The position numbers and the translations under genes were made by a program. Source: a virus. Taken from it: a stretch of DNA of 64,000 nucleotides. Position 1 is the first letter of the stretch. Every line of letters begins with the position of its first letter. Under the pieces are notes generated by a model. That model ran no database searches, was not told the DNA's origin, and worked only from the letters and a program-made list of their open reading frames with translations. The DNA is taken from positions 1-64,000 of the IMG/VR virus record IMGVR_UViG_3300021197_001433; one strand, written 5' to 3'. Shown here piece after piece: positions 28,869-63,118 of this stretch.

Positions 28869-28876
28869 TATTTATC
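28869..28876 (-). promoter_or_regulatory. T4-like late promoter (GATAAATA)
   Basis: GATAAATA on the minus strand, 32 bases upstream of the ATG at 28837. T4 late promoters are TATAAATA -10 elements recognised by gp55; the same octamer occurs upstream of 32441. Confidence 0.55.
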
Positions 28877-32475: not shown

Positions 32476-32483
32476 TATTTATC
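32476..32483 (-). promoter_or_regulatory. T4-like late promoter (GATAAATA)
   Basis: GATAAATA on the minus strand, 35 bases upstream of the long tail fibre ATG, in the 58-base gap after the giant gene. Confidence 0.55.
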
Positions 32484-44400: not shown

Positions 44401-45942
44401 TAGTGTTCCGTCCCAGCCACCAGCATCATATGCTACTGAATCAAATCCATCACTGGTACTGTTAGTGTATTTTTCAGGTGTAATCATTTCGTCAACTGCA
44501 ACCAGTTGTATACCGCCTGGTTGTCCTACACCTTCAACATAGTATTCTCTGTCGCCATATAGTGCAGGCGTAACATTGCTGTTAAATTCTACTTTAAGTC
44601 CATTTGTAAATTTTACACTGTTTGCACTTGTAAATGATTGTTTATTGAGTATATCTTCTGTAACATTAATAGCGGCTGTAACATCCTCATCTACAATTTG
44701 GATTTTACCAAACTGCAGTTCATTTGTTGCATCCTGATAATACAGTGTATTCAATCCTGCTGTATAGGGCTCTATTAGTTCTGGAACTCCACTGGCATTT
44801 TTATAGAATTCTCTATTACCATATAAGTTACCCTGTTTAATTTTAACTTTTTCTGCAACGGGCCAATCAGTGCTACGAGTAAGTTGAACTGTATCAACGC
44901 CACCAACTTTGTTTACTGCAATACTATATACATCATAGCGAACATCCACAGGCAGTGTAGTTGTTTCGTCCCAAGGATGATCGTCATCATCATATCCGTA
45001 TGCGTCAAATGGTGCGCCCTGTTCCCAGTCACTTGCTACTGTACTAGGACTTACAAATACTAGTGTCTTTCCATCAATTTCTGTTTGTACATCAATGCCG
45101 CCATGTGTGTCAATCAGTGTTTGATAAGGTACATTGTGAATATCTTTGTATGCAAGATCAGTAGCAAAGTCAGGATTTGCAGCCTGTGTTGCGTTTATCA
45201 TAATATTTTGTGCGTTAGTAGCAGGAACATTAAAGGTAATCGTTCCATTATCTTCGCCATTGTTAGTAAGTCCAAGTATTTTTCTTGTGCTTACATTACT
45301 TCCATAGTTACTAATGCCAGACAAGCCTGGTTCAGTTTGGATCCAAAATGGATGACCTGATTGTTGTACACTAAATGTGTAACTACCGCCACGGGCAATT
45401 GTAATAGTTGGATTTTCGTTATCACTATTATCAATGCTGTATTCATCAACACCAGCAACTGTGCGTCGTGTAATAGCAAAATCTTTTTCCATATCGACGA
45501 CACTGTTAAAAACTTGCACACTGTCAGGGCCTGCTGGCAACCAAAAGTATTCGCCATAGTTTACAAGTTTGTCTAAATCATTAAAACCACTGTAGTTGTA
45601 ATATTCTTGGTCGTTAAGATCAGCATGTGTGTCAACATTTACATTATTGTATCTCAGTTGATTAATAAAGTCAATGTAACCAGTCAAACTTTCAATGCTT
45701 TTATTAGCACTGCGATAAACAACCGCAGGCTCAAGTTGATAATTTTGTCTATCTTTGTCTATCTCTTGGACATAACTATCTCCTACTTGAAAACTTGCTG
45801 CTTGCTGCCGACCAATATAACTGTTAATTCTTGTTAAATTAGGTTCACTGATTAACTGGTCAACAGTAGCGTTAAGAAACTTGTTGTTTTTATTAGTTTG
45901 AAATACGTCTGGTAATAAGACTTGACTTTTACGAAGTGCCAT
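32500..45942 (-). CDS. giant 4480-residue virion structural protein (baseplate region)
   Basis: One uninterrupted frame of 13.4 kb. It directly follows gp6 (TAATG overlap), the position of gp7 in T4, so a baseplate-wedge or baseplate-periphery role is the first guess. Near residues 185-200, GGSYTFSVQQSGHPFWI resembles a cupredoxin-like beta domain. Around 2230-2890 at least six repeats with FG-S-VA plus VAIVGAP, VAVGAP, LFVGAP, VVIGAP, VAIGSP and IFIGAP form a probable FG-GAP beta-propeller of the integrin-alpha type. Several GFDxxxFD motifs lie in the last third. The C-terminus has GERITYWE and LRRGTSGTG, common in baseplate and fibre connectors. Confidence 0.85.
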   Translation of the reverse strand: MALRKSQVLLPDVFQTNKNNKFLNATVDQLISEPNLTRINSYIGRQQAASFQVGDSYVQEIDKDRQNYQLEPAVVYRSANKSIESLTGYIDFINQLRYNNVNVDTHADLNDQEYYNYSGFNDLDKLVNYGEYFWLPAGPDSVQVFNSVVDMEKDFAITRRTVAGVDEYSIDNSDNENPTITIARGGSYTFSVQQSGHPFWIQTEPGLSGISNYGSNVSTRKILGLTNNGEDNGTITFNVPATNAQNIMINATQAANPDFATDLAYKDIHNVPYQTLIDTHGGIDVQTEIDGKTLVFVSPSTVASDWEQGAPFDAYGYDDDDHPWDETTTLPVDVRYDVYSIAVNKVGGVDTVQLTRSTDWPVAEKVKIKQGNLYGNREFYKNASGVPELIEPYTAGLNTLYYQDATNELQFGKIQIVDEDVTAAINVTEDILNKQSFTSANSVKFTNGLKVEFNSNVTPALYGDREYYVEGVGQPGGIQLVAVDEMITPEKYTNSTSDGFDSVAYDAGGWDGTLNAPKDQDYITINRASPDRNAWSRGNRWFHREVIEATATYNNYTADLDDTARAKRPIIEFYSGLELFNMGTTSVAPVTVVDTTQTDALSNVNGTPGYFADGIDLQQDSTVIFSADTDTDVRTKIYRVDIISADQSAATTDSLSIFADSTTVGADGGNTSGKVEIINLVDIGTVVDTNCVLSTLGATNQGKQFYLDDTVWTEAQQKTTLNQDPLFDIFDPDHTSFSDTTKYPSSNFTGNKLFSYKRNNNNSPDAILNFGLSYQNFSTIGDIVFENNFDSDIFQYTKSTGNTNVIVRSGHAHQFDIDGNRVLYNGWTKTIENSTQYQIVTYEVSANELNSFEIGASVDTSRIREPLQVSVNGQFIYKTDYTHLIQQDREYVVFTTALNENDVVVIKFISANKSPNSFYEVPDNLQNNAGNATFDTLTLGQMRNHAVQLSRQIKTLLGVAPGKSNLRDTNFRAYPGNILQHSAGMILPMHLLSNTEANTIDSINFVKNEYTKFKNRFIDNINKLDLDLTDPAKCVDDILLFMAGTKTSTFPFYFSDMVPWGNQKSQLVYTIDDAAETEFEFTTQFDLTSIGSRGVLVYHTPISTGVPNLLVEGQDYTFDTTEAKVVLTTTNLDVALIGLSVDDKITIVEYTNTHGSFIPPTPSAMGLYPKFIPNKYADNTYTVEKTVIQGHDGSVWIGWDDIRDNVVLELEKRIFNNIKTQYNKDLFDITEVVPGYFRSTLTDFAEANNIIRSYFGEWALRNKVRMQKNDTVEAGNPFTWNYRNSVYKIDGSRIPGHWRAIYNWFFDTDTPHTKPWQMLGVKEKPLWWDQRYGVAPYTSGNTVLWEDLRDGKVYTDATGTTFTIDTRRQRPDLMSIIPVDEQGQLRSPAEFLVQDAFSTNVSDDWAFSDGSPGETAWRRSSEYPYVVQILAATIKAAKYGTLMFDTNLFEKNAQYDQILQKFKSYRPGIVDFELHGQATGAEEDNDTHSHKEVEGYNQFISEYLRYNGFSVDDAINRINNLELNLCYGMAGFTDKQYLKVVAESVTPSSQSENIFIPDEDLNIYTKKSLPLERVVYSGVQIIQRADGYEIQGYDIKNPFFKIIPSSEGTDPARVSVGETVYLEYKDFENRIVNIPYGTIITNRQQVFDFLVSYQRYLLSRGFVFDGTTGVGEKNDFISAGKEFAFWTDQKWPLGSVIVISPYSDTLTLNRAYATIDDIRTNGEIKDANGSIINPKFYDVSRIDNVIEIKVDAENTQLYSVQLDPIQHEHVLVFNNTTIFNDIIYQPELGNRHSRLKLIGARSGDWNGTLHAPGFFINEDKINVWATYTDYKKGDIVSFQGTTYVAKYAVDGSTVFDYNDWTVADNIKTGLVKNLANKATQFKDFFETDNLNLEDGVDKLGKGIIGFNEKDYLAGLGLDDVSQVKFYQGMLKQKGTGAAINKLIDAKLTNLDQTIDYFEEWAFRVGEYGSIDSNQIIETIIPEQEATNNPFVLHYHAAGDLPSTTELGHYHVQEKDLYKKPNNYTGDVFSVRDSNTNTLKDLDSAGYARLDDVDFTVFNTSELLGLSDRIEELGKGKKIWIATDDSNTWSIRRIDETLSTVTSVESTGNGYLIYTTDVNHGLVEDDYVIIRAAQPIGKVAKIFEVSAPNKFTIVDAETEAEITDINIPMYKLSNVRFAQPSSLSTYTPVSGWNNKELVWVDKDNNGKWQVLQNTRPWTTTGVKTAASINADDKYGTSVALNRSATVAIVGAPDNGYGLVTPYVRSEGGVLVEGNSFAVATIGNSVDSFGHSVAAGVDYVAVGAPETQSGRGAVFIYYVDSSGQFNRRPAIRPAGLGASDKFGTSVVMSGNGRYLFVGAPGSNDIYCYTQVTIPVSSQEVKTVTGDASATKVFALGFTPINILALNITDENGNVYLPTKDFTISGSDITFVAAPANGLDVVIRQEDYYALSDMLVPFDASTGDNYGFAIDCDYQGRTVVIGAPNAAVAGTDSTVFGDAGEVSIQSQVVQQFAGDGITKGFTTTEDLQTQIFVEVDGILQTETNNPDVPVDNDGSSEGFYTRSAKTITFKYTPASGARIVVYTGTFIEKQKIDQNITGQTVTEGEQFGYSVAVDSDATMVAIGSPGEDETNPNTGSVFIFQDTGKNYGTVTTNVPHAQTAGDTFYLNNKLITVSSSSDNPANLSGDILGASLPGVTSSVNSLGQVVITSTSTETNNKLTINPGSGQMFTRDDVFEIYKFTQKISHPQAFENENFGRTVAFDKNVEVGIGSNPGTRNLVIASDKASTMLAVGFDVEQDSNSEDYLEATTTYDSNGTTFTDRRTQSGAGYLYELLDSNVPTLANPSQMVFGQALKSTNVAALDQFGASAAFSDNRIFIGAPQDSGTYNNSGSVYEFNNNTRASSWATLRSQGDRVDVTQINRVALYNKKDGQIKVFLDYLDSTKGKIPGVAQSELSFVSHNDPALYAKWNYKQNNTLWWDTSTVHYLLSEQGELDFRTNYWNVAFPGSSIDVYEWIESPVPPEQYTGEGTVKDVNKFSTSVIYNNSSNSTQTYYYFWVSGRTDIPVEAEFRTISADSVTKLIEDPKAQGVPYIAIVDKNAIALYNCKQYFADSDVVLSVNYDVVKNEGVLHSEYELFGRGNVDQDIPARMYTKLVDSLAGSDSVGNLVPDPFLSEVEKYGVLTQPRQGMFVNRAAALKVLTQYCNSILVKAPFARLSSVSRLLSSENIPTVNSGEYNISVDSIAERDYLNTAILTTGYKVLVLEDETQSNYWAIYTLQEDKSYQLTNIQGYNTADYWDYATYYATGYDGTTVPKYQVTLEADLLTLTDAVTGDIAKVTSNDEGNFSMFVKTDTGWDEVVIERGTLQFNDSLYSFNTANSNFQATGFDNDAFDFGAFDKVPADEIRQIVDALKNDLFIGDYEINMNELFFRLMEYAINENNFSQDWLFKSSFITVAHKIRSLDQYNTFKFDNTNFIEDFINEVKPYKTKIREYVSKYDKVDTYGSDTTDFDIHSFYDENNLYFRKPSGDFAGDEILQTQGLNKPWSENYGYSLDSIEIVNAGSGYVTDPTITISAPDLADGVQATAVAITNGVEIVNVNMTNKGSGYTSEPTITVDGSAGSGLLLSPRLVNTTIRSFDTTIKFDRITYSSAIKDWTKNTAYVVDDIIAYQDTVTKTQEVYTCIVDFTSGSTFSIENTTGVTVLEVKADNDFTNAADRISAYYYPTSGMIGDDIELLQNGIGYGGTKITGPGFDQNPGFDSANFDVIGFDDIQIDDDGIAVISSIDTVFRGTDFDQAGIIGDVFVEPGYLPPGYLVELSLGVAPESIIVDGAGFVDTYNSHAPEELIPGRIFDTLDMEVYTHSSNDYEGDGNGAEIQYTSYTDPTGTLQTFSYGDPNKSEDDFVYLIVYINETRQFDFTNDGFRNNNIRLPNPLGPTDILHIYAFSQTGENMIGNYTYVGDGSTIGFVLPNVPERTQQTLIYVDGQEVGATFTTQDNRSLMTLSSVPNNGAHIHVFVFNQAEDRKAATKFATQTLETDGTTTLFGLSYMVEGYVEDGYLFGGAKAFYAPPGSANSVLEVDNKRIRPVNSVYHTADGSSLQFATPQTCGEGNIVFVGAISVAILRKDGTPALSAVRDIDYTISTGTQFVTMTTAPNEGDIVIVTDNTSADFTISLDGESMLMSADVPQTASSDIKLQAFSNHDPLRIQTKVYVGQGTGSTTIEDAFDEVNFDTAGFDRQVTSGTVGTYAIDRTATNVNHFWITVDGKRLHPGEFTVSGKNVIMSEAVQDTIGGSSVVIITHFTENIIQYPVGFRIFQDMNGNVEYLRLAKDNQTFVTETVEITDTKIYVEDASVLPFANVNASNPGVVFIGGERITYWEVSLEDNYITNLRRGTSGTGMLQRITPGFIVVDGSKDQELPDSTTHTKVWYDAGIHNTPANGLGIQQATTTNANFLREKQAQVPNYRLELNEKNYFAKDYVVTGYAEDLI

Positions 45943-49576: not shown

Positions 49577-49584
49577 TATTTATT
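49577..49584 (-). promoter_or_regulatory. late-type promoter element (AATAAATA)
   Basis: AATAAATA on the minus strand, 27 bases upstream of the gp6 ATG, in the 54-base gap after gp25; one base away from the T4 late consensus. Confidence 0.45.
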
Positions 49585-49989: not shown

Positions 49990-52572
49990 TTACTTTCCTT
50001 GGTTATCAGCACCAGCATAGATTGCTAGTATCTGTTGTTCCAACTGCTTTTGTGCTTCAGGATTATCGAACATCTGTGCATGTAATGCAGCAATATTTGC
50101 ATCAGATCCAGTTGATGCACGACTTTGAGGTTCACTTTTAAGTGGAACTTGTGAGGATCTTGATCCTGCAGCCCGCTTTGCTGCGGCAGCACCAGTTAGC
50201 ATATTATTTTTTACACTGCTAAAAATGTCAGCACCTCCTGGTATGTTTGTTGTATTTTGTAGTACACCTTCGATCTCAGTAAATCCTTCGCGAACTTTGG
50301 CGACAATCTCTGGACTTGCATTATTACTTGCTGTAAGTTGTGCTAGTATTTGTTCTTTACCATCTGTAAGTTTGATACCACCATTGTTTACTAGTGTTTG
50401 ATAGTCCTCTGCTACAATTGCTTGTTGCACACTTTCCTGTAATCCTGCATTGCCCAAGAACTTGTTTAAACTGTTTGCGCCGCCTTTGCCTGTCCAAACG
50501 TTGGTATCTGTTAATTGGTCATTAAACACTGCTTCTGGACGCACAAAACCTTGTTTTTGTAGTTGTCCCACGTTTACGCCAAACTTTCCAACGCTTTTCG
50601 TTACACTGTCAACAAATGCTGGATTGTTTAAACTTCCTGCTTGTTTTACCACTGCAGCGTTAAGTGCTTGTGTATCAAAACTGTCCAATGCGCCAATACT
50701 AAACCCAGTATTAGTCTGTTGTACTATATCTGTAATTGGAAACTTGGATAATTGTGGACTGCTAAGTATAGACCCAAGTTGATCCTGTGCCTGCGGAAGT
50801 ACTTTATTAAACTCCGCAACTGCTCCTGGCAGTTTGTTTTGAAACTCTGCTACTGCTCCCGGAAGTTGTGCTTGCATTTCGCTTGCCATGCCTGTAATCT
50901 TACCATTAATGTCTTTGGTAAAAGAATTCAAATCAGGACTTACACCACCAAATGCACTTGGATCAACTGGCAAATCACTTACTATACTACCAATATTGCT
51001 TGGAATTAACGATCCGCCTGTGCCACCAAATGCTAATTCATCTGGCAACCCTACATCTCCTACTCCAACTGATTTAATTATGTCTGGACTTATTGCACTA
51101 GTAAGTGCTGGACTAACAATACCATATCCACCTGCAGGCCCACCGCTTGCTCCTGCTAGTCCACCACTAAAAGGTGTACTAGTATTTGTTGTTCCATGCC
51201 CTATAAATGGCTCGTGCATTGTAAGTCTATCAACACTGGTACTAAGCATTTGTTCTTCATCTAGTATAAACTGATTCTGTGCTTCATCATAGGTTGTATC
51301 TTCTTTTTGTCCAGCACTAATTTTTTTTGCTTGTTTTGCTTTTGTCTTTGGACCTTGTAGCAATACTAGACTACCTGCAACACTAATGTTGCCACCTGCG
51401 TTGTAGTAACTTGCACCTCCGCTTGACGCAAATAGTTCACTGTCTGTGTGCAAGTGTAAATTCTTTTTGCCGTTAATACCTAGTTCACCATCACTTTGAA
51501 CAGTAAGTTCTTTTTTGCCTTCCAGTGCAAGTTGTTGTTCACTTACTATTTGTGTGTAGCCTTTGCTGTGAAACTTTATGTTTTCATCAGCATGAAAGTT
51601 AATATTTTTGCTGCGGAAATTTATACTATCCTGTGCATACACATCCATAGTACCTGTATTGCTTAGTTCTATCCAGGTACTGCCTATACTATTGCCAATA
51701 TAGATAACACCCTCAGTGTCGTTAAGCAGAATTTGATGACCAGTACTTGTGCGAAAACGTATTTGATTACTGTTGCCATCAATATCGCCATCGTCCAGCG
51801 TAATGCTGTGTCCTTTACGTCTAGCATAGGGTGCTAGTAATCCCTCAACAATATCTTTACTTGCTGTGTCCGGATTTTTTACTGCTGCAGCATTTGCTGT
51901 GAGAAAATCCTGTCCATTGCCATCTATTCTACGTCCTTTACTGCTAATACCTATAAGTTCACTAGGTGATTCGCGCATGTATCCACTGTTGTTAATACCA
52001 CGCACAGTATCACCAAGCAGTCCTTGTTGACGCAGATAATTCTGTGTAAAGAAATCCACTGGTCTTGGTTGTTTTTTAAAGTTTGTTACTTTTTTACTGC
52101 TTTTGTCTCCTTTGGGATTATCATTAAACTCTCCACCAGGATCGCCGTCCACTGTTAATGTTGCTTCAGGAACAGTTTGTAACATAAATGTGTCAGGTAC
52201 ACATGCAAAATAAAACCCTTCAGCGTTGCGACCTTCTGGAAAGAAACACAGTACTTTTGTACCTAGATCAGGCGGTGGTGTTACAAATCCACTGCTAACT
52301 TTAGTGCTATAATAACTATCTTGAGGACCTTGATTATCTACTCTACTGTAAAAAGGCGTGCAATATCGCACAGTACGCCACTGTGACTTAGTAGCAGGAT
52401 TTGTGCTAAAAGTAGGTATGAACACTTGGATAACACCCATGTGTGCTCCATGTACGTTTGCTTTAACAATGCCTGTAACAATACCACGTTCTTCTCGAAC
52501 ACCAGTTACGTTTGCAGTATTGTATTGAGGATCACCGCCTCGTTTTCCTGTTCTTGTAATATCTGTAGCCAT
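49990..52572 (-). CDS. 5: baseplate hub/spike protein gp5
   Basis: An 860-residue central spike protein. The N-terminal OB-fold part has VNVHGAHMG-like and GTKVLCFFPEGRNAEGFYFACV segments typical of gp5/VgrG. Residues about 260-420 have RFRTSTGHQILLNDTEG and short repeats (INFRSKNINFHADENIKFHS) expected for the beta-helical spike. I see no lysozyme domain like that in T4 gp5. A C-terminal part of about 400 residues rich in Gly, Ala and Gln is extra and of unknown role. It is followed after 7 bases by gp25. Confidence 0.85.
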   Translation of the reverse strand: MATDITRTGKRGGDPQYNTANVTGVREERGIVTGIVKANVHGAHMGVIQVFIPTFSTNPATKSQWRTVRYCTPFYSRVDNQGPQDSYYSTKVSSGFVTPPPDLGTKVLCFFPEGRNAEGFYFACVPDTFMLQTVPEATLTVDGDPGGEFNDNPKGDKSSKKVTNFKKQPRPVDFFTQNYLRQQGLLGDTVRGINNSGYMRESPSELIGISSKGRRIDGNGQDFLTANAAAVKNPDTASKDIVEGLLAPYARRKGHSITLDDGDIDGNSNQIRFRTSTGHQILLNDTEGVIYIGNSIGSTWIELSNTGTMDVYAQDSINFRSKNINFHADENIKFHSKGYTQIVSEQQLALEGKKELTVQSDGELGINGKKNLHLHTDSELFASSGGASYYNAGGNISVAGSLVLLQGPKTKAKQAKKISAGQKEDTTYDEAQNQFILDEEQMLSTSVDRLTMHEPFIGHGTTNTSTPFSGGLAGASGGPAGGYGIVSPALTSAISPDIIKSVGVGDVGLPDELAFGGTGGSLIPSNIGSIVSDLPVDPSAFGGVSPDLNSFTKDINGKITGMASEMQAQLPGAVAEFQNKLPGAVAEFNKVLPQAQDQLGSILSSPQLSKFPITDIVQQTNTGFSIGALDSFDTQALNAAVVKQAGSLNNPAFVDSVTKSVGKFGVNVGQLQKQGFVRPEAVFNDQLTDTNVWTGKGGANSLNKFLGNAGLQESVQQAIVAEDYQTLVNNGGIKLTDGKEQILAQLTASNNASPEIVAKVREGFTEIEGVLQNTTNIPGGADIFSSVKNNMLTGAAAAKRAAGSRSSQVPLKSEPQSRASTGSDANIAALHAQMFDNPEAQKQLEQQILAIYAGADNQGK

Positions 52573-52575
52573 TGA

Positions 52576-55305
52576 TTATACTGTCCCAATATATCTGGTT
52601 GCCCATGCTTCACTTTGGCTTGCTGGGTTATCTTGAATTGTTTCTATACTTTGATCTTCGCCTCTAGCGATTTCTGCTGTTCTTTCATTGTTTACACTAG
52701 GACTTGTATAAGGTGTATCCTCATAGTCAAAAAAGTCTAAACTGCTTGTATCCACTAGCGGATTTACTACTGTTGCGCCACCTGCATCAGTGCTAGGTTT
52801 GTTGCCACTGCGTCTAACACGGTTATTAATCTCAAAGTCACCATCTTCTACTTCATCACTAGCACGGACGGTGGATGTTTGAACTCCTGTTTTTGTTAAA
52901 CCACCTTTACTAGGTTGCAATTTAGCTCTGAATCCTTCAAGTCTTTGTTGGAATACACCGCCACTGAAAGTGCTGTCAACACTTGTAACTTGATATACTC
53001 CACTAAAACTACTGTTACCATATCTACTAGGATTTGCAAGTCCACTTGTTTCATCATAGTCCACTGGTGTTCTAAGATTAACTTGAATATAGGGAGGTGT
53101 CAAGTTATAATTTATAGTTCCGTCAGGCATAAATGGTTCTGTATATTGTTCTCCTTGACGAACTCTATCTTGCCAGTATGCATCGCTAGTGGGAATAAAG
53201 GCAGGATCACCAACAATTTGCAATCCAAGATCAATCATATCAACACCATCACTCATAACACTACTAAACAAGTCCTTTGATCTTGCACGTTTAACATTAT
53301 CCTGGCTGTTTATTGTATTGCCCTCTATACTCTGTGGAAGTTCTTTTACCATAGTACCTCCCAGTGTTTCATCTGCAGTGTTAATACCAAAAGGTTTTCC
53401 TGTGCCTGCAGTCATTACTTGAATGAACGCAGTTCTAAACTTCATATCAAAATCCAATACTTCTGTGTTTGCACCGCTAAAAATGTAATCATATTCTTTG
53501 TGTACACCTATACCTGTAGGTTTACTTTTTTTAGCCCAGGGAAAATCTTCATAATAAATTTTATTTGGTTCCACAGCAAAATTCACAAGATACTTGTATC
53601 TCCCATCTTTATTATCCATGCCGCCGCCAGGACTATCTGCACTTTCAATAATAGGTCTTACTTTAAACCAGTCAATTCCACTACTGTCATTTACATCAGG
53701 ACTTGGATTATCTACAATATTTTTATCCATATAGTCACTGTGTAGTATTACAAGATTAAGCAGTTTTGTAATATCTGTACCTGCGTTTATTTTAAATGTT
53801 TGTGTTTCTTTATCAAGCGTAATGCCCTGTGCAATACCTCTTACATACGCATCAAACTGTTTTTTATCGCCCTTGCTTTTTTCTTTTTCTTTGCCTTCTT
53901 CTGTGGGTGCAGGAGTATTAAGTGCATCATATAGATCAGTTAAATTAAGTTTGGCATTTGCTATATTCGCTGCAATAGTAAACTTGTAAGTATCATGTTT
54001 TTCTGCTGCTGGTGGAATCTCTTTTTCAGTGACTTCATTATTTTTTTCTACTAGTGCTTTGGATGGTTTTGTACGTTTACGTTGATGGTTAGTAAGCACT
54101 TCACCTAGGTTTGCTGATTTTGTTTTTTGTGTAGTTTTTACAACCCTTTCTCGGGTAGTAGTCTCTTGAGCTCTTATTCTCTCTGTAACAGTGGACTTTA
54201 CTGTCTCTTCAACCATAACACCAGCACTAAAAATGTCTCCAACTGTTGTTGCTTTAAGTTCTACGTTAAAGGGTATAATACTCTGTATACTACCCATTGT
54301 ATGATTAGCAAATGGGATTGCCTGACATTTGTATTGAGTGCCGCTGCTAGTGACATCAAAACTCATATCAGTCAATCTAATAGGAATATACTTTGGTGTG
54401 CTAGGTGCCCCCATGGGTTGCCCATTTTCATCATACCCTTTAAATTTTATTTCCAATAGATAAGGAGCATGTATATACTTTTCCCTAGTGCTTGCTAGTA
54501 CACCACCGGCTGCACGTTGTAGTCTTTCCAATAGCGTAACACCACGTGGTTCTGTAATAGTAAAACGTATATCAGTTGCGTTTGTATTGGACTTAAACCT
54601 ACTTGGACCAACAGCAACATTAGAGATTTCTAAATCATCAATAAAGAAATCATTACTAAAGTCTGTACCGCCTCCCTCTGTGCCAACTCCGCCACTACGC
54701 ATAAGCAAATAACTAGCAGGTGGTCTAAGTGCATCCTGTGGAGTTCTAGGTTGACTAAGAAGGTTTACATAACTTTTACTATTCATCAAATAAAGTGCAA
54801 TATTGTATGTGTAACTTGTAAATTTATTAAGTTCATTTGTTATAGGATTAATTTGTATCTTACTTAAATCCTGCGTAAACGGGCCATTGTTTAGTGCCTT
54901 GACGCTGCTACTTTGACCAATTTTTGTTCGTATCCTTGCACTTTCATTTAGACCAATTGGAGGACCTGTGTCACTGCCGTCTGTGGTAGCAAGGAAATTG
55001 GTATATTTTCCATCATCATACTCATCATCCATGCCATAGACTTCTTCGGGTGCTATTGCATTAGTAATACTGCCGAATCCTGCCTCAGCACGATCTGAAG
55101 TCCGGGGGGTTCTGCCTGGGGAAACTTGTATTCTTACTAAATTTCCAGCAGCGTCTTGTATAACGTCAACATCTCCCGGTGCCACTGCAGGCACAGTAAG
55201 TGGTTCTTCTACTGAGATCGTAGGATTCTGTTGAGGAGGCTCATAAAGTGAAAAGTCCTCTGGTGCTGGATTGTTTAACTTGTTTTTATAGTGCGGACTA
55301 GGCAT
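52576..55305 (-). CDS. large baseplate hub-type structural protein
   Basis: A 909-residue protein between gp53 and gp5. Segments such as DIRFTITEPRGVTLLERLQRAA, FEIKFKGYDENG-type strand pairs, and TSSGTQYKCQAIPFANH belong to a virion protein I recall in this position in T4-like cyanophages. Its place next to gp5 suggests the role of the T4 hub protein gp27, but similarity to gp27 cannot be judged by eye. A Lys/Glu-rich linker lies near residues 385-460. AGGAA precedes the ATG. Confidence 0.72.
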   Translation of the reverse strand: MPSPHYKNKLNNPAPEDFSLYEPPQQNPTISVEEPLTVPAVAPGDVDVIQDAAGNLVRIQVSPGRTPRTSDRAEAGFGSITNAIAPEEVYGMDDEYDDGKYTNFLATTDGSDTGPPIGLNESARIRTKIGQSSSVKALNNGPFTQDLSKIQINPITNELNKFTSYTYNIALYLMNSKSYVNLLSQPRTPQDALRPPASYLLMRSGGVGTEGGGTDFSNDFFIDDLEISNVAVGPSRFKSNTNATDIRFTITEPRGVTLLERLQRAAGGVLASTREKYIHAPYLLEIKFKGYDENGQPMGAPSTPKYIPIRLTDMSFDVTSSGTQYKCQAIPFANHTMGSIQSIIPFNVELKATTVGDIFSAGVMVEETVKSTVTERIRAQETTTRERVVKTTQKTKSANLGEVLTNHQRKRTKPSKALVEKNNEVTEKEIPPAAEKHDTYKFTIAANIANAKLNLTDLYDALNTPAPTEEGKEKEKSKGDKKQFDAYVRGIAQGITLDKETQTFKINAGTDITKLLNLVILHSDYMDKNIVDNPSPDVNDSSGIDWFKVRPIIESADSPGGGMDNKDGRYKYLVNFAVEPNKIYYEDFPWAKKSKPTGIGVHKEYDYIFSGANTEVLDFDMKFRTAFIQVMTAGTGKPFGINTADETLGGTMVKELPQSIEGNTINSQDNVKRARSKDLFSSVMSDGVDMIDLGLQIVGDPAFIPTSDAYWQDRVRQGEQYTEPFMPDGTINYNLTPPYIQVNLRTPVDYDETSGLANPSRYGNSSFSGVYQVTSVDSTFSGGVFQQRLEGFRAKLQPSKGGLTKTGVQTSTVRASDEVEDGDFEINNRVRRSGNKPSTDAGGATVVNPLVDTSSLDFFDYEDTPYTSPSVNNERTAEIARGEDQSIETIQDNPASQSEAWATRYIGTV

Positions 55306-55306
55306 A

Positions 55307-55606
55307 TTAGATTCCTAATGCTGTTTCGACTGTATCCTTTTTGGGAATGTAAAACTTCTTTCCTGCACGAAAATCCCAGACAGGATCTTCAAATGCATTT
55401 GGATTACGAGCCATAAACACCCACCATAGATTACTATTGCCATACAAGTCAAAAGCAAGTAGGTCAGGTCTGTTTTGATGCACTAGTGTAAGTGTATGTA
55501 GTACATCGTCTCTGAAAGGAGGAATACGTCGTGGACTAAGCACATCCAAGTAGTAACTGTATTGATTGGTATTAGCATAGGGACTATCACTATTGTATTC
55601 AGCCAT
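55307..55606 (-). CDS. 53: baseplate wedge protein gp53
   Basis: A 99-residue protein with the gp53 core NRPDLLAFDLYGNSNLWWVF followed by N-FEDPVWDF-AGKKFYIP, a LysM-like arrangement found in the wedge protein of T4-like phages. T4 gp53 is about twice as long; short forms are usual in marine T4-likes. GGAGG stands before the start. The stop/start overlaps with the gp48/54-like gene by one base. Confidence 0.85.
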   Translation of the reverse strand: MAEYNSDSPYANTNQYSYYLDVLSPRRIPPFRDDVLHTLTLVHQNRPDLLAFDLYGNSNLWWVFMARNPNAFEDPVWDFRAGKKFYIPKKDTVETALGI

Positions 55607-56448
55607 TAAATAAATCCTCCACCTTTGCCTGGATTACCAATTAGTCCGCCTTTGCTAAACTTATCCAAACTAAAGTTTCCAATTTGATTTTTACTGTAGA
55701 TAGGCAATAGACTAATTGTCATATTCATATAACTTGGTATCATAGTTTTAGTTGCAGTATCAGGACTGCTTGCAAGAGGAACTTCAATATAGTCTCTGTC
55801 TGCTGGCATAATTTCTGTAAAGTTTGTAATTACAACAGGTATACTGTTGTAGTTAAACGGACCATATCCACTTAGTCTTAGAACTGGTGGCGGTGTGCCT
55901 CGTAACTGATCTGCTCCGTAGAACATTTTATAGGCACTGCGGAAAAAATGTAGTACAGCGAAAACATAACGTGCTTCATCTGCGTTAGTTGCTGTAAAAT
56001 ATCCATCAATATTAATTGTATCCACGCTACTAGCATTGTAACTGTGTTGAATATAGTTACTGTGTGTTGGATGCGCTCCTGCGTATTGCGCACTGTGACT
56101 AACACTTACTGTGGGTGTATAGGGAAAAAGCACGCCATCTGTGTCAAGCAGTGGCTCCAGCAATTTATTTTTTGCGTCTTTATACAAGTAATTTCCACTA
56201 CTAGGACTCATACTAAGTCTAACACGGATATCACCGTCTCTGAACACAGTAGCAGCAACATCACTAAATCCAGGAATGTTCTCACCTGCAAAATTTAATC
56301 CTGCTTGGATAAGTCTATTACCACTGCTATCTAGTAGATTGCGACCAATTTTACTAAGTGGATCATTACCTGGAAGAGCCCTTCCACTAGCATCACTTAC
56401 AAATTGCTGTGCTTTTCGCTTAAAGATACTACCTAAATTAAACGCCAT
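55606..56448 (-). CDS. tail tube cap/initiator, gp48 or gp54-like
   Basis: A 280-residue protein that is the first gene of the leftward late run. The N-terminal MAFNLGSIFKRKAQQFV and the central strands PTVSVSHSAQYAGAHPTHSNY and IDGYFTATNADEARYVFAVLHFFRSAYKMFYG match the baseplate tail-tube family (gp48/gp54), which starts tube polymerisation on the hub. I cannot separate gp48 from gp54 by eye. TATAAATA lies 34 bases upstream. Confidence 0.75.
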   Translation of the reverse strand: MAFNLGSIFKRKAQQFVSDASGRALPGNDPLSKIGRNLLDSSGNRLIQAGLNFAGENIPGFSDVAATVFRDGDIRVRLSMSPSSGNYLYKDAKNKLLEPLLDTDGVLFPYTPTVSVSHSAQYAGAHPTHSNYIQHSYNASSVDTINIDGYFTATNADEARYVFAVLHFFRSAYKMFYGADQLRGTPPPVLRLSGYGPFNYNSIPVVITNFTEIMPADRDYIEVPLASSPDTATKTMIPSYMNMTISLLPIYSKNQIGNFSLDKFSKGGLIGNPGKGGGFI

Positions 56449-56471
56449 TTATCAAATCCTTGTTTTTTTAC

Positions 56472-56500
56472 TTGATAAGTATATTTATAGGCTGTATAAT
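56472..56500 (+). promoter_or_regulatory. sigma70-type promoter of gp55
   Basis: TTGATA (56472-56477), 17 bp and TATAAT (56495-56500); predicted start about 56507, leaving a 21-base leader with AAGGA before the ATG at 56528. The late promoter of the divergent gene lies inside the spacer. Confidence 0.7.
56482..56489 (-). promoter_or_regulatory. T4-like late promoter (TATAAATA)
   Basis: A perfect T4 late -10 octamer on the minus strand, 34 bases upstream of the gp48/54-like ATG at 56448, lying within the spacer of the oppositely directed gp55 promoter. Confidence 0.7.
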
Positions 56501-56527
56501 ATACGCATATAAAAGGAATCACATTAA

Positions 56528-57340
56528 ATGATCAAAAGGAAAAAATATCTCAACAACCGAGATTTGTTGAAAGAAATCCACCTAAGTAAAAATACATATA
56601 GTAGTTTTGTTAATGAAAATGATGATGTTTATGACATTATCTTACCCAACGTAGAAAAAATTAACATTCGCACTATTGCACAAGCAAAACGTAATCAAGC
56701 AGATAGATTACAAAAGAAAGCATATGAAGCAGCTCGTGCAGAAGGACAAAAAGTAAAGCAAGCAGACTTTGCTGTTGATTGGAAAAAAATTGACAAGAAG
56801 GATGTTGTTTTTCGCATTATGACGCATGACCATATTCCACTGCATCCAGGTCGCAAAAAGTCACCAAAGACTGTGGCAGACCATCATGTACAGTGTAACT
56901 TCCCTCCTTTTCAACACTTTAGACTGGACGACAGTGATGTTGCAGTTTGTGTTGGTAAAAGTCACTGGGACGGCGGACTAGAAAACGGAAACTTCAGTAA
57001 AACACATGGCAAGACTACTAACAAACTTGCCCGTATGTATATGAAATTATGCGAACGTTATGGCACTAGAAGTAACTGGCGTGGATACACATACAATGAT
57101 GAGATGCGTAGTCAAGCATTGTTGCAACTTGCACAGATTGGCTTACAGTTTGATGAAAGCAAAAGTGAGAATCCATTTGCATACTACACTGCAGCAATTA
57201 CAAACAGTTTTACAAGAGTGCTAAACTTGGAAAAGAAAAATCAGAGCATCCGTGATGATATTCTCGAAAGTGCTGGACTAAATCCTAGTTACACAAGACA
57301 AACTGAAAACGAACTAGCAAAGAGTTCTGATCCTATCTAA
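56528..57340 (+). CDS. 55: late-transcription sigma factor gp55
   Basis: A 270-residue gp55-type sigma. The diagnostic part is near the C-terminus: NDEMRSQALLQLAQIGLQFD and FAYYTAAITNSFTRVLNLEK, equivalent to sigma region 2, which recognises the late -10 octamer with host core polymerase. T4 gp55 has 185 residues; here the extra length is an N-terminal half with a basic helix (about 55-85) and a segment resembling the phage-specific gp55 N-terminus. It is expected to read the GATAAATA/TATAAATA elements in this window. Its start has a Shine-Dalgarno (AAGGA). Confidence 0.85.
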   Translation: MIKRKKYLNNRDLLKEIHLSKNTYSSFVNENDDVYDIILPNVEKINIRTIAQAKRNQADRLQKKAYEAARAEGQKVKQADFAVDWKKIDKKDVVFRIMTHDHIPLHPGRKKSPKTVADHHVQCNFPPFQHFRLDDSDVAVCVGKSHWDGGLENGNFSKTHGKTTNKLARMYMKLCERYGTRSNWRGYTYNDEMRSQALLQLAQIGLQFDESKSENPFAYYTAAITNSFTRVLNLEKKNQSIRDDILESAGLNPSYTRQTENELAKSSDPI

Positions 57341-58143
57341 TGAAAAATAAAAAACTGTTATCAATTGGTTGTAGTTTTACAGCACACAGTGGATTCGATC
57401 AGAACATACACAAGCATTGGTTGTCACAATTTTCCAAAAATAACAATTTTGAAACGACAAACCTAGGACTACCAGGTTGCTCAAATGCTGAAATTTTTTT
57501 CCGCACAGTAGAAGCGATTTCTAAATGTGCAGATTATGATTTTGTCACAGTACAATGGACAAGTTTACATCGCTTGTGGGTATACCATAACGATAAAAAC
57601 ATTGATGACTATACAATGGTTAACGGAACAGGTATAGGAGGTCTACATAGTGATAGTGATCATGTAAAAACGTATCAAAAAATACACCATGGTTATTTTG
57701 GCAACCAGTATGTAGCACTAAAGCAATGGCTTCTATACACCATTGCACTTGAAGTTTTTTTAAGATCTCGAGGCTTAAAGTTTGTTTTTATTCTTGGTGC
57801 TCAAAACTATCTTGATACTATACCAAAAATATCCTATAATAAAGACACTGGCTTTGAAAACACTGTTCTTAAAATAGTTGATGACATCGCAACATATTTT
57901 GATGATATGTTTGATACAAAAAATAACGCTGATGACTTGATAATAGAAAAACTGTCAGATATACAAAATCTAATAAAACAAAGTCAGTGTCTTACATGGC
58001 TAAATTTTGACTCAAAACCATTTACTAAATTAGGACCAGATGACGATCGTGCAGATGACAACTCACATCCAGGACCTATAGCAAATAAAAACTTGTGCAA
58101 ACAACTTACAGATTACTATGCAAAACTTGACAACAATAGTTAA
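57340..58143 (+). CDS. SGNH/GDSL-like hydrolase family protein
   Basis: A 267-residue protein with the block layout of SGNH hydrolases: block I LSIGCSFT (nucleophile S12), block II GLPGCSNAEIF (Gly/Asn), and block V DDNSHPGPIANK near the end with a DxxHPG-type Asp-His pair. Such enzymes are esterases or acetyl-transferring/removing enzymes for sugars and lipids. The TAATG overlap shows it is translationally coupled to gp55. A role in deacylating a host surface glycan, or a link to the glycan genes, is possible; its place among transcription and recombination genes is odd. Confidence 0.72.
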   Translation: MKNKKLLSIGCSFTAHSGFDQNIHKHWLSQFSKNNNFETTNLGLPGCSNAEIFFRTVEAISKCADYDFVTVQWTSLHRLWVYHNDKNIDDYTMVNGTGIGGLHSDSDHVKTYQKIHHGYFGNQYVALKQWLLYTIALEVFLRSRGLKFVFILGAQNYLDTIPKISYNKDTGFENTVLKIVDDIATYFDDMFDTKNNADDLIIEKLSDIQNLIKQSQCLTWLNFDSKPFTKLGPDDDRADDNSHPGPIANKNLCKQLTDYYAKLDNNS

Positions 58144-58155
58144 AGGCACTATACT
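58127..58155 (+). promoter_or_regulatory. sigma70-type promoter, leaderless type, for gp47
   Basis: TTGACA (58127-58132), 17 bp and TATACT (58150-58155). Six bases separate the -10 element from the ATG, so the usual +1 falls on the A at 58162. No Shine-Dalgarno is well placed. Confidence 0.65.
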
Positions 58156-58161
58156 TAACAC

Positions 58162-59172
58162 ATGAGTTTGTTCAAACGGGCCGCCGTATTCACGGATATT
58201 CACTTTGGCAACAAGAGCAATAGCCAAACGTTTAACCGCGACTGTCTCGATTTTGTAACTTGGTTTTGTAAAGAAGCCAAGTCACAGGGTGCAGACACTT
58301 GTATCTTTATGGGAGACTGGCATCATCAACGTGCGAGTATCAACGTTGCTACACTGAACTACAGTATAGAAGCACTGGAGTTATTAAACACAACATTTGA
58401 TACTATACATTTTATACCAGGCAACCATGATGAATACTACAGAGACAAACGTGACTATAACAGCATCGCGTTTATTAAGAAATTTGAGAACATACAATTT
58501 TACAATGATATTACCACAGTTGATGGTGTAGCATTTATACCCTGGCTAGTTGGTGATGAACACAAGCAGATGCAGAAAATAACTGCTGACTATGTAATTG
58601 GTCACTTTGAACTGCCTCATTTTTATATGAACGCTATGGTACAGATGCCCGATCACGGTGAACTAAGTGCAAATGACTTTGGTCGTTGCGGTACTGTGTT
58701 TACAGGACATTTTCATAAAAGGCAAGAACGTGAGAATGTTGTGTACACAGGCAACGCATTTCCTCACAACTACAGCGACGCTGGTGATGATGATCGCGGT
58801 CTAATGATACTGGACTGGGATGGAACAAGACAGTTTATTGCCTGGCCCGATCAACCCAAGTATCGTGTACTAAAAATTAGTGATCTACTGGAAGGCCCAG
58901 AAAAGTATTTGAGTCCCAAGACTTATGCTCGTGTACACTTGGATGTGGACATCAGTTATGAAGAAGCAAACTTTATTAAAGAAACCTTTATGCAAGAATA
59001 TGGATTGCGTGAAATGAGTTTGATCCCTCTTAAAGTTGAGGACATGGACATGCAAATCTCAGGTGAGATTAACTTTGAAAGCGTGGACACTATTGTTACT
59101 AGTCAATTGCAACAGATTGATAGCGAACAATATGATACTAATCTAATGTTAGACATTTATAGGAACTTGTAG
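58162..59172 (+). CDS. 47: recombination endonuclease subunit gp47 (Mre11-like)
   Basis: A 336-residue metallophosphatase-fold nuclease. Metal-binding motifs appear in order: D12-x-H14 (FTDIHFGN), GDWHH, GNHDE, a GHFE element and TGHFHKR. Together with gp46 it forms the SbcCD/Mre11-Rad50-like complex that resects DNA ends for phage recombination-dependent replication and degrades host DNA. Length agrees with T4 gp47 (339). A consensus-like promoter ends 6 bases before the ATG. Confidence 0.93.
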   Translation: MSLFKRAAVFTDIHFGNKSNSQTFNRDCLDFVTWFCKEAKSQGADTCIFMGDWHHQRASINVATLNYSIEALELLNTTFDTIHFIPGNHDEYYRDKRDYNSIAFIKKFENIQFYNDITTVDGVAFIPWLVGDEHKQMQKITADYVIGHFELPHFYMNAMVQMPDHGELSANDFGRCGTVFTGHFHKRQERENVVYTGNAFPHNYSDAGDDDRGLMILDWDGTRQFIAWPDQPKYRVLKISDLLEGPEKYLSPKTYARVHLDVDISYEEANFIKETFMQEYGLREMSLIPLKVEDMDMQISGEINFESVDTIVTSQLQQIDSEQYDTNLMLDIYRNL

Positions 59173-59178
59173 TATAAT
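59150..59178 (+). promoter_or_regulatory. sigma70-type promoter, leaderless type, for gp46
   Basis: TAGACA (59150-59155), 17 bp and TATAAT (59173-59178), then AAACAC and the ATG at 59185. The predicted +1 is the A of the ATG. The -10-to-ATG string closely resembles that of gp47. Confidence 0.6.
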
Positions 59179-59184
59179 AAACAC

Positions 59185-60948
59185 ATGTTTAAAATTGATA
59201 CACTTACAGTAAAAAACTTTATGAGTGTGGGTAACACCACACAAGCAATTGACTTCAACCGCAATGACCTTACACTTGTGCTGGGTGAAAACTTGGACAC
59301 AGGCGGCGGTGATGCTGGCAGTAGAAATGGTACTGGCAAGACCACTATCATCAATGCGCTAAGTTATGCACTATATGGCAATGCACTTACAAACATTCGC
59401 AAGGACAACTTGATCAACAAGACCAATGGCAAGAACATGCTGGTCACTGTGGAGTTTGAAAAAGATGGACTAAATTATCGTATTGAACGTGGACGTAAGC
59501 CTAATGTGCTAAAGTTCTACATTAACAACAACGAACAAGAAACAGAGGATAACGCACAGGGCGATAGCAGAGAAACACAAAAGGCTATTGAAGAACTGTT
59601 GGGTATGAGTCACGACATGTTTAAACATGTGCTTGCACTAAACACATACAGTGAACCATTCTTAAGCATGAGACAAAACGATCAACGTGCTATTATTGAA
59701 CAGTTGTTGGGTATTACTATTCTCAGTGAAAAAGCAGAGAAACTAAAAGAGATAGTGCGTGTAACTAAGAACAAGATTCAAGAAGAAGAATACCGTATCA
59801 AAGCAGTTGAAGATGCTAACGGCAAGATTGTAGAACAAGTTGATGCGCTAAAGCGCAGGCAGCGTATGTGGCAAGACAAAAAAGATCAGGACATTGCAAA
59901 CTTTAAAACAGCAATCAATGATCTTAGTCATGTTGATATTGATGCTGAACTTAGAGCGCACACTGAACTTGCAGACTGGAACACACTAAACAATGCACAG
60001 GTTCAACTACAAAAAGACATTGCTGCACTGCAGGCACAGGAAGGCAGAGCAGAGCGCGATGTTAAAAAAGCAAACAAGGCTCTAGTAGGTTGGCAAGACG
60101 GAGTGTGTCATAGTTGCAATCAAAGCATTACACACCTGGATAGTCATAAACAAGAGATTGAAAAAGCGGAGAAGGAACATGACGAAGCAAATAATTTCCT
60201 TACAGAACTACAAACAGCAATTACAGATCTCAAAACTCAGCAAGAAACAGTCCCAAGCAAACCACGAACTTTCTATGATAGCGCCACTGATGCACACAAC
60301 CATCGTTCAAGCCTATCCACACTGGAATCACAACTACAAAGTAAGCAAGATGAAAGTGACCCTTACACCGATCAGATAGCAGAAATGGAAACTACTGCAG
60401 TACAAGATATTACCTGGGATGCGATTAATGAACTTACTAGAGTACAAAATCATCAGGAGTTTTTATTAAAACTACTAACTAATAAAGATAGTTTTATAAG
60501 AAAGCGTATTGTAGATCAAAATCTCGCTTACTTAAATACAAGATTAGAAGGATACTTGGGTGCAATTGGATTGCCACACAGTGTGGTGTTCCAAAATGAT
60601 CTAAGTGTAGAAATACAAGAATTAGGACGAGATTTAGACTTTGATAATCTAAGCAGAGGCGAACGTAACAGACTTATACTCTCACTAAGTTGGGCGTTCC
60701 GTGATGTTTGGGAAAGTTTATATCAACCTATAAACCTGTTGTTTATCGACGAACTAGTAGATAGCGGTATGGATTCAGCAGGTGTAGAAAATGCCATGGG
60801 CGTACTCAAGCGCATGAGCAGGGAAAGAAACAAGAGTGTTTGGTTGGTAAGCCACAAAGATGAACTAGTAGGTCGTGTAAACAACGTACTCAAAGTTGTC
60901 AAAGAAAATGGGTTTACTAGTTATGACACTGATATTGAAATAGTATAG
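59185..60948 (+). CDS. 46: recombination endonuclease subunit gp46 (Rad50-like ATPase)
   Basis: A 587-residue SMC-type ATPase. Walker A GSRNGTGKTT is at about 45-54; a coiled-coil follows; the zinc hook CHSC is at 308-311 (VCHSCNQ); the second coil leads to the ABC signature LSRGERNRL and the Walker B LLFIDELVDSG. The partner gp47 is 12 bases upstream. It tethers and processes DNA ends during recombination. Length fits T4 gp46 (560). Confidence 0.94.
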   Translation: MFKIDTLTVKNFMSVGNTTQAIDFNRNDLTLVLGENLDTGGGDAGSRNGTGKTTIINALSYALYGNALTNIRKDNLINKTNGKNMLVTVEFEKDGLNYRIERGRKPNVLKFYINNNEQETEDNAQGDSRETQKAIEELLGMSHDMFKHVLALNTYSEPFLSMRQNDQRAIIEQLLGITILSEKAEKLKEIVRVTKNKIQEEEYRIKAVEDANGKIVEQVDALKRRQRMWQDKKDQDIANFKTAINDLSHVDIDAELRAHTELADWNTLNNAQVQLQKDIAALQAQEGRAERDVKKANKALVGWQDGVCHSCNQSITHLDSHKQEIEKAEKEHDEANNFLTELQTAITDLKTQQETVPSKPRTFYDSATDAHNHRSSLSTLESQLQSKQDESDPYTDQIAEMETTAVQDITWDAINELTRVQNHQEFLLKLLTNKDSFIRKRIVDQNLAYLNTRLEGYLGAIGLPHSVVFQNDLSVEIQELGRDLDFDNLSRGERNRLILSLSWAFRDVWESLYQPINLLFIDELVDSGMDSAGVENAMGVLKRMSRERNKSVWLVSHKDELVGRVNNVLKVVKENGFTSYDTDIEIV

Positions 60949-61954: not shown

Positions 61955-62185
61955 TTATAAGATGATTTGATTAGCCTCTTTGCTAAGTTTCATGTTATCT
62001 TCAATCACTTCGTTGAAGTATTTGTATTCGCTCAGAGGAAGTTCTAGAAGTTCCGCATAGGAAACACCACCGCGCATGTACCAACATAATTGTGCTATAG
62101 TTTTTCTGATACGATTTACTTCTGTATCAAATCCTTCTAGTAGCCCCTCAATCTCAGGATTAGATAATGCTAAGAGGCGAATACG
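61955..62185 (-). CDS. -1 frameshift extension of gp26 (tail-chaperone T-like)
   Basis: The frame -1 to gp26 is open from just upstream of the gp26 slippery sequence to TAA at 61955 and encodes 76 residues after the slip. It includes NPEIEGLLEGFDTEVNRIRK and CWYMRGGVSYAELLELPLSE. The MRGG-(I/V)S-Y-x-E-L pattern is typical of small hub-assembly/tail-chaperone proteins of T4-like phages. There is no ATG, GTG or TTG between the upstream stop in that frame and the MRGG methionine, so expression as a gp26 fusion is the simplest reading. It may correspond in function to T4 gp51. Confidence 0.7.
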   Translation of the reverse strand, partial: RIRLLALSNPEIEGLLEGFDTEVNRIRKTIAQLCWYMRGGVSYAELLELPLSEYKYFNEVIEDNMKLSKEANQIIL

Positions 62186-63069
62186 AAAAAATTTGATTGG
62201 TCAAATGTAAATGGTGCAGTGTAACTGTGTCCACATTCATCGCAGGTATGATTTACATCTTTGCTAGGAATAGCCTTGTTAATATCATCTATCTTTGCTT
62301 TAATAACCTCAAACAACTGGCGTTCACTGTTTGTAACAAACTCCTGGATAAAATCTGTATCTATTACTGTATCACCTTCGGGTGTTACTATCCTTAGTAT
62401 AGTACCACTTACGTTCCTTACAGTATAATTTGTCATAGTCTGAAATATTTTGTAGAATCTTTGCTGCTTATCTTCTTCGCTAAGTTCTGTATCATTTATC
62501 ATAGTCACCATGCGTTGTTGTTCAAACTGTTCCAAATTTTGTGTGTTTACACTTTCATAATCGTTTGGTTTAAGAAAAATTTGCATGCCCTTGTATTCAA
62601 GTGGCTCCTGATATGCACTTAAATTTACAGGAAGGTCTAGGAAGTTTCGTAAATCCAGTTCATATTCATCCTGATTACTGCATTGTGGACATGTACTAGT
62701 GTACTCCATCTTCTCACCATAACTTGCAATTCTGATAGCAATTAATATTGTATCTAAATCACATACTGGAATACACCAAGCGTTCTTAATGTTTGGCATA
62801 CAACTGTGAATCATATCCACTACTGCTTGCCCATTCATAAGTGCATCCGGTGTGTTAATAGCAATTTCATCCTTGGTACTCATAGGATATACGGGCAATT
62901 CGTTGTTTACAGTCATTTCTAGACTGTTCATAGCCCAATATTCGCCATTGCTGGGTAATTTAATATAGATTGCAGGTTGCCGCATGTATTTTTGTAGCGG
63001 ATTTGTGCGGTTTTGCATCTGTGCAAGTTGCTCAGGGTTCATCGAAAAGTTCTCAGGTACATCGACCAT
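62170..63069 (-). CDS. 26: baseplate hub protein gp26
   Basis: A 299-residue protein. The ATG at 63069 with GGAG 6 bases upstream is chosen over a longer open frame. LQKYMRQPAIYIKLPSNGEYW begins the conserved region; two cysteine pairs, C127-x2-C130 (CPQC) and C276-x2-C279 (CDECG), can bind zinc; the end FTFDQSNFF is typical of gp26 in marine T4-like phages. T4 gp26 (208 residues) is needed for hub assembly. Its place next to a tape-measure-like gene and the -1 extension suggest a chaperone role like lambda gpG/gpGT. Confidence 0.82.
   Translation of the reverse strand: MVDVPENFSMNPEQLAQMQNRTNPLQKYMRQPAIYIKLPSNGEYWAMNSLEMTVNNELPVYPMSTKDEIAINTPDALMNGQAVVDMIHSCMPNIKNAWCIPVCDLDTILIAIRIASYGEKMEYTSTCPQCSNQDEYELDLRNFLDLPVNLSAYQEPLEYKGMQIFLKPNDYESVNTQNLEQFEQQRMVTMINDTELSEEDKQQRFYKIFQTMTNYTVRNVSGTILRIVTPEGDTVIDTDFIQEFVTNSERQLFEVIKAKIDDINKAIPSKDVNHTCDECGHSYTAPFTFDQSNFFVFAS
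62188..62194 (-). promoter_or_regulatory. candidate -1 ribosomal frameshift site
   Basis: On the minus strand, in the gp26 frame, A_AAT_TTT (62194-62188) is an X_XXY_YYZ heptamer and is immediately followed by overlapping T_TTT_TTC. Slippage at gp26 codons 293-294 of 299 would join gp26 to the 76-residue extension. Confidence 0.65.
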
Positions 63070-63091: not shown

Positions 63092-63099
63092 AATAAATA
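63092..63099 (+). promoter_or_regulatory. late-type promoter element (AATAAATA) for the rightward tail gene
   Basis: AATAAATA on the plus strand, 46 bases before the TTG start at 63145; the same octamer precedes gp6 on the other strand. Confidence 0.4.
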
Positions 63100-63110
63100 G
63101 TATGCAAGTA

Positions 63111-63118
63111 TATTTATA
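63111..63118 (-). promoter_or_regulatory. T4-like late promoter (TATAAATA) for gp26
   Basis: Perfect late octamer on the minus strand, 42 bases upstream of the gp26 ATG. Confidence 0.65.

Follow-up and report, generated by a model that had tools for sequence, protein, structure and literature searches.

The window analysed here is a 64,000-nt (64-kb) stretch of DNA from a marine T4-like phage; its source record is a 69-kb fragment. A short intergenic region near one end of the window separates two operons that point away from each other, one headed by the gene for the late sigma factor gp55 and the other a run of baseplate genes. As a developmental master regulator, gp55 ranks among the earliest to have been recognized. 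The features of the locus are:

49990–52572, minus strand: gp5-like baseplate hub and tail lysozyme (phrog_13211)
52576–55305, minus strand: virion structural protein of the baseplate run (phrog_11190)
55307–55606, minus strand: gp53-like baseplate wedge subunit (phrog_7145)
55606–56448, minus strand: virion structural protein of 280 aa that opens the leftward baseplate run (phrog_12050, E 1.5e-42)
56449–56527, between the two operons: divergent intergenic region of 79 nt, carrying both putative promoters
56472–56477, plus strand: predicted sigma70-type early −35 element of gp55, TTGATA (sequence and sigma70-type scan)
56482–56489, minus strand (read from 56489 to 56482): putative late box TATAAATA for the leftward baseplate operon, wholly within the early spacer
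56495–56500, plus strand: predicted early −10 element of gp55, TATAAT; consensus spacing would place +1 near 56507
56528–57340, plus strand: gp55, late sigma factor of 270 aa (phrog_12791, "sigma factor for late transcription", E 7e-83)
57340–58143, plus strand: unknown protein of 267 aa, following gp55
58162–59172, plus strand: gp47-like (SbcD-like) recombination endonuclease subunit, with a sigma70-like site of its own at 58127–58155
59185–60948, plus strand: gp46-like (SbcC-like) recombination endonuclease subunit, with a sigma70-like site of its own at 59150–59178

Both operons begin in the 79-nt gap and face apart, so each needs a promoter there. The leftward run comprises, in order, a virion protein, a gp53-like wedge, a second virion protein, the gp5-like hub/lysozyme, a gp25-like wedge and a gp6-like wedge. 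Its first gene, which we call gp48-like by position only, has a homologue that is kept beside gp55 in relatives. The window's gp55 matches the T4 gp55 chain of the late initiation complex (7d7c_F) weakly but specifically (E 1.6e-4). The virion run also holds a single leftward ORF of 4480 aa (window 32500–45942).

Upstream of gp55, TTGATA and TATAAT can be read directly at 56472–56500, separated by the 17-nt spacer AGTATATTTATAGGCTG; these are the same elements from which the initial annotation drew a rightward early promoter. The site matches the sigma70 consensus at 11 of 12 positions and has the joint best score among 18 sigma70-type sites found between 54 and 60 kb. The scan as a whole yields no excess of sites (18, versus 18.4 in shuffles), so it is position and conservation, and not score alone, that argue for an early promoter here. 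Within the window's clade (a 10-row set with SH-aLRT 96 in the gp55 tree), the −10 element is kept and the −35 element varies (TTGATA, TTGCAT, TTGCTA). A short leader with AAAGGAA lies between this promoter and the gp55 ATG at 56528.

A leftward-facing late box inside the early spacer had also been proposed, and TATAAATA is indeed present there on the minus strand. The ATG of the first baseplate gene (56448) lies 34 nt beyond it. In T4 the late box occupies −13 to −6 (PMC1524935), and by this rule the late start is predicted near 56476, a base of the early −35 hexamer. Several aspects of the motif's distribution bear on its identity. TATAAATA occurs just twice in the 64 kb, against 6.8 copies expected, and ATAAATA is likewise depleted (9 copies versus 23.6 expected). 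Four of the nine ATAAATA copies sit 33–41 nt upstream of leftward virion starts (28837, 32441, 49550 and 56448). Besides the copy in the gp55 spacer, these are:

49577–49583, minus strand: putative late box preceding the gp6-like wedge gene (start 49550)
32476–32482, minus strand: putative late box upstream of a virion gene (start 32441)
28869–28875, minus strand: putative late box upstream of a virion gene (start 28837)

CTAAATA, a published late-box variant found in Aeh1 (PMC1524935, PMC2988020), also occurs ahead of virion genes. In contigs from nine relatives, intergenic DNA makes up about 1–4% of bases by the gene caller used, and roughly one-third to two-thirds of ATAAATA copies are intergenic; a similar share lies 15–70 nt ahead of a gene start on the same strand. 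Boxes of the (N/T)ATAAATA type thus stand directly upstream of late virion genes, as in T4-type late promoters. Judged by this distribution, ATAAATA behaves as the late box of the window phage, presumably recognized by gp55. The PHROG matches of the genes downstream, which are virion and baseplate genes, agree with the earlier assignment of the box to the leftward virion run.

Late boxes are also found face to face. At 63093–63118, between a leftward hub gene (62170–63069) and the next rightward gene, boxes on opposite strands have predicted starts that nearly coincide (~63104–63106). This arrangement recurs beside the homologous hub gene in five relatives' contigs (G003 87247–87278, G004 24623–24654, G005 92232–92270, G007 73249–73287 and G008 7293–7321).

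At the gp55 locus, the predicted early and late starts are separated by ~31 bp and diverge, and the two polymerase sites, on opposite strands, are predicted to overlap by ~60 bp. Because the early spacer contains the late box and the predicted late start falls in the early −35 element, the site would admit a single polymerase. Provided that both promoters are active, their polymerases would exclude each other at the window's site by geometry.

A blastn search for near-identical phage records returned only 66% matches, within gp55 itself, and we therefore studied conservation in IMG/VR contigs, where more than 600 stretches encode relatives of the window's gp55. We analysed 238 gp55 loci, 232 of which could be scored for the orientation of the upstream ORF. 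The longest upstream ORF is divergent from gp55 in 225 of these 232; the other seven consist of contigs that are truncated, a locus with gp55 split, and the Kyanoviridae syn9 and Melnitz-1, which serve as outgroups. Where sequence allowed, the divergent gene is a homologue of 55606–56448, followed by gp53 and gp5 homologues. Removal of duplicates left 164 distinct gp55 upstream regions. By script, a minus-strand late box is present in 147 of them, compared with a shuffle expectation of 16% and 15/164 for the plus-strand control. In the remaining 17, the box is legible on reading the sequence, the script having misplaced the gap boundary or start codon. All 164 regions therefore have a readable late box that faces the divergent baseplate gene. 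When gp55 is clustered at 80% identity, the box is found in 34 of 37 clusters (5.7 expected). In most clades the box carries ~1.9–2.0 bits per column, the stretch from the box to the −10 element mostly ~1.3–1.8 and the far flank mostly ~0.5.

The overlap is also particular to this locus. Ten contigs contain 42 sigma70-type promoters near genes. Overlap with a late box on the reverse strand is seen for the gp55 promoter in 7 of the 7 contigs where it was scored and for 2 of the 35 other promoters, with a Fisher p of 1.3e-6 that is optimistic, since the seven contigs are related and the test overstates their independence. Overlap belongs to the gp55 locus, and not to every promoter of these genomes. 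The rarity of TATAAATA and ATAAATA, together with the conserved pairing in relatives, indicates that the arrangement is more than chance. A conserved, overlapping divergent pair of putative early and late promoters is thus well supported by sequence comparison. Two more divergent early/late pairs were noted elsewhere (G002 67546–67578 and G008 25926–25957), in which the late box abuts the TTGACA of a sigma70-type promoter.

The distance between the late box and the early −10 element is clade-specific. It is −13, with the box nested in the spacer, in the window's clade and in locus L024; −25 in a freshwater clade whose −10 element is extended; −29 or −30, with the box lying against the −35 element (TATTTAGTTGACA), in the two largest marine clades; −33 to −35 in RaK2, 121Q, CBB and GAP32; and −65 in about 20 PA5oct-like loci. 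In class C it is +13, with a tentative early promoter. (The script's tree labels contain slips: L211, L215 and L219 belong to −25, and L152 and L184 to −65.) Mapped on the gp55 tree, the spacing labels require at least 11 changes, with both promoters retained. In a simple model, the shared footprint would be ~60 bp at −13, ~43 at −30 and ~8 at −65. Hence, conservation of the overlap, in the form first described for the window, is found in part: hundreds of related phages keep the pair side by side, and exact nesting is confined to the window's clade and L024. Because spacing differs by clade, steric exclusion would be no constant of the family.

Class C was at one point taken to lack an early promoter. 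We dropped this view, as a conserved TTGCTT-17-TATACT is present; its role as the early promoter is held tentative because TTGCTT overlaps the ribosome-binding site of the leftward gene. The gp55 leader in this class (e.g. L013, L021, L042) is conserved over ~90–120 nt and has GGCACAATTTTAGGCGCACTTAAT, and most members also have CAGACCTGTTTGTGGTC; an Rfam search of the leader gave a chance hit only and nothing credible. In class B (e.g. L056, L065, L082), a partial palindrome resembling TTAACTACGTA recurs in the gp55 early spacer, and a similar element lies ~10–25 nt upstream of several late boxes in G001–G005. In six loci (L157, L172, L173, L175, L176 and L024, the last at G008 18817), a late box, GATAAATA or CAATAAATA, reads into gp55 itself, which predicts that gp55 synthesis would continue late in these phages.

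How might such a site work? Before late transcription sets in, host sigma70 polymerase would start rightward at TTGATA-17-TATAAT and transcribe gp55, followed by gp47 and gp46. Once associated with gp55, polymerase would take TATAAATA on the opposite strand and transcribe the leftward baseplate operon. With one polymerase on the site at a time, late initiation would block new starts at the gp55 promoter. The result would most likely be at most a moderate, automatic damping of late gp55 synthesis, and the tight packing most likely arose by fitting two divergent promoters into a short gap. We regard this combination, a bidirectional and mutually exclusive early/late promoter with probable mild damping of gp55, as the best explanation and a reasonably probable one. 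Counting against it, silencing of a strong sigma70 promoter may demand more late polymerase, or faster initiation by it, than is available. The initial annotation went further, proposing that occlusion of the early promoter by gp55 polymerase gives self-limitation of gp55 and a clean early-to-late switch. In the window, occlusion is predicted from geometry, the overlap being too deep for two polymerases at once; its generality is opposed by the PA5oct-like phages, in which the two promoters lie 65 bp apart. Self-limitation and a clean switch are plausible as hypotheses.

It is also possible that compaction accounts for everything, that is, that these are ordinary divergent promoters in the shortest workable gap and that their overlap has no selected regulatory role. 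We give this an even chance. A 79-nt divergent gap imposes some overlap whatever the regulatory gain, and overlap partly tracks gap length, with gaps of ~71–84 nt in clades spaced −13 to −30 and ~119 nt in the PA5oct-like phages at −65. The repeated alteration of spacing on the tree while both promoters persist is likewise expected if packing alone matters. However, in the same compact genomes other sigma70-type promoters rarely overlap late boxes (the 2 of 35 above), and in class C, where the gap is 128 nt, the late box nonetheless lies 13 nt from the conserved TATACT. The −65 spacing is held exactly in about 20 PA5oct-like loci despite a diverged early spacer. More generally, spacing is rigid within clades, although in the abutting and nested clades this rigidity is partly forced by the touching elements.

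If instead the overlap was selected as negative feedback, with gp55 holoenzyme on the late box occluding the gp55 early promoter so as to limit gp55 and sharpen the switch, overlap would be expected. About 60 bp of it is predicted for the window's clade, where the late start would fall within the early −35 element, and nearly all loci of the marine and RaK2-like groups show some overlap. Divergent promoters that overlap, moreover, form one of the layers of a genuine switch in plasmid pLS20 (PMC4207663). Yet PA5oct-like phages retain the pair with almost no overlap (~8 bp predicted), where occlusion would be weak, and the six loci with a late box reading into gp55 would have feedback of the opposite sign. 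We therefore consider selected feedback rather unlikely. Far less probable, in our view, is that the TATTTA element is not a late promoter at all but belongs to the early promoter, as part of its spacer or upstream region, or serves as a site for a regulator. The commonest clade does lock the box against the −35 element, and more of its spacer is conserved, including a TACGTA-like palindrome. But the same box precedes other virion genes that have no sigma70 promoter, its position relative to the early promoter shifts between clades while its strand is constant, and the gap offers no other candidate promoter for the divergent operon. We retain the bidirectional, mutually exclusive promoter with probable mild damping of gp55 as our working model.

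Other parts of the late-transcription apparatus can be sought in relatives. The co-activator gp33 is poorly conserved. In the close relative G001, positions 125314–126045 encode a 243-aa protein of phrog_12062, a family of unknown function. AlphaFold2 on 15 homologues gives a pLDDT of 90.5, and Foldseek matches the model to yeast PCNA (E 3e-11); on this predicted fold, we identify phrog_12062 as a PCNA-type sliding clamp (gp45). Its profile is positive in G001, G005 and all seven isolated jumbo relatives searched (PA5oct, Atu_ph07, CBB, GAP32, RaK2, 121Q and Phosso); such a clamp is therefore encoded in relatives, and none was found in the window record. CBB is thus positive although a gp45 homologue had been reported as not detected there (PMC5259590). 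The Pfam T4 clamp model PF02916 is positive in T4 and negative in syn9, so its absence elsewhere carries no meaning. In G001 the clamp gene is preceded by a sigma70-type promoter whose spacer contains CTAAATA on the same strand (126078). Of 61 distinct marine and freshwater loci (L290–L369), 42 have the same box immediately ahead of the clamp gene, always with C at −12 and mostly within, or in contact with, a sigma70-like promoter, a placement that hints at middle control or at dual control, early and late; the box was not found upstream of the clamp gene in the isolates. Presence of a clamp makes a T4-style replication-linked late system more plausible in this clade. A T4-like terminal LDFL motif was not seen on gp55 in the window or the relatives inspected, and the C-termini vary.

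These data raise the idea that, throughout a clade of marine and jumbo T4-like phages, exclusion between sigma factors at one divergent site sets how much late sigma factor is made, the gp55 holoenzyme occluding the gp55 promoter. We think this unlikely; if it is true, gp55 and the clamp, whose early promoter in marine and freshwater relatives carries a late box in the same direction, would be under feedback of opposite sign. In T4, the dosage and timing of late sigma components are viewed as critical design elements (PMC2988020). Here, one 80-bp fragment would contain both the promoter that makes the late sigma and a promoter that the late sigma would use, and exchange of early and late polymerase should be measurable there. 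In uncultured jumbo phages the conserved pair can also mark where gp55 lies. It further offers a late-promoter motif for groups whose marine relatives, the pelagimyophages, had yielded none to motif searches (PMC7029224). We found neither a published statement of the promoter overlap nor a 5′-end map in the open-access literature.

Like T4 (Straboviridae), the window phage has TATAAATA-type boxes upstream of virion genes and a gp55-family sigma factor with a detectable match to that of T4. Unlike the window, T4 has gene 55 following same-strand genes and not divergent from a baseplate gene, and the window's gp55 is extended by a long stretch at its N-terminus and has AKSSDPI at its C-terminus, where T4 gp55 has LDFLYEAND. 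In syn9 and Melnitz-1, a strong sigma70-type promoter similarly precedes gp55, and gp47 and gp46 follow (the two following genes are unnamed in Melnitz-1), but a same-strand coding context comes before gp55 and the early promoter has no opposite-strand late box. The divergent gp55/baseplate order, not found in T4, syn9 or Melnitz-1, is seen in the isolated jumbo phages PA5oct, Atu_ph07, CBB, GAP32, RaK2, 121Q and SCTP-2; in Phosso and Atu_ph07 a cytidylyl/adenylyltransferase-type gene comes first. CBB and GAP32 share this order with the window, and the published account, in the passages available, describes ATAAATA ahead of structural genes at 35 places and a sigma70-like promoter, Porf_244, before gp55, without discussing an overlap there (PMC5259590). 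They differ in that the gp55 −35 element is of a TGAAACG type, associated with DNA-synthesis genes (PMC5259590), and in that the late box precedes the −10 element by 34 nt, whereas the window's lies inside the spacer. Finally, the Pc and Pr promoters of pLS20 also overlap divergently as one layer of a switch, although pLS20 is a conjugative plasmid in which both promoters are governed by RcoLS20 and DNA looping rather than by phage early and late sigma factors (PMC4207663).
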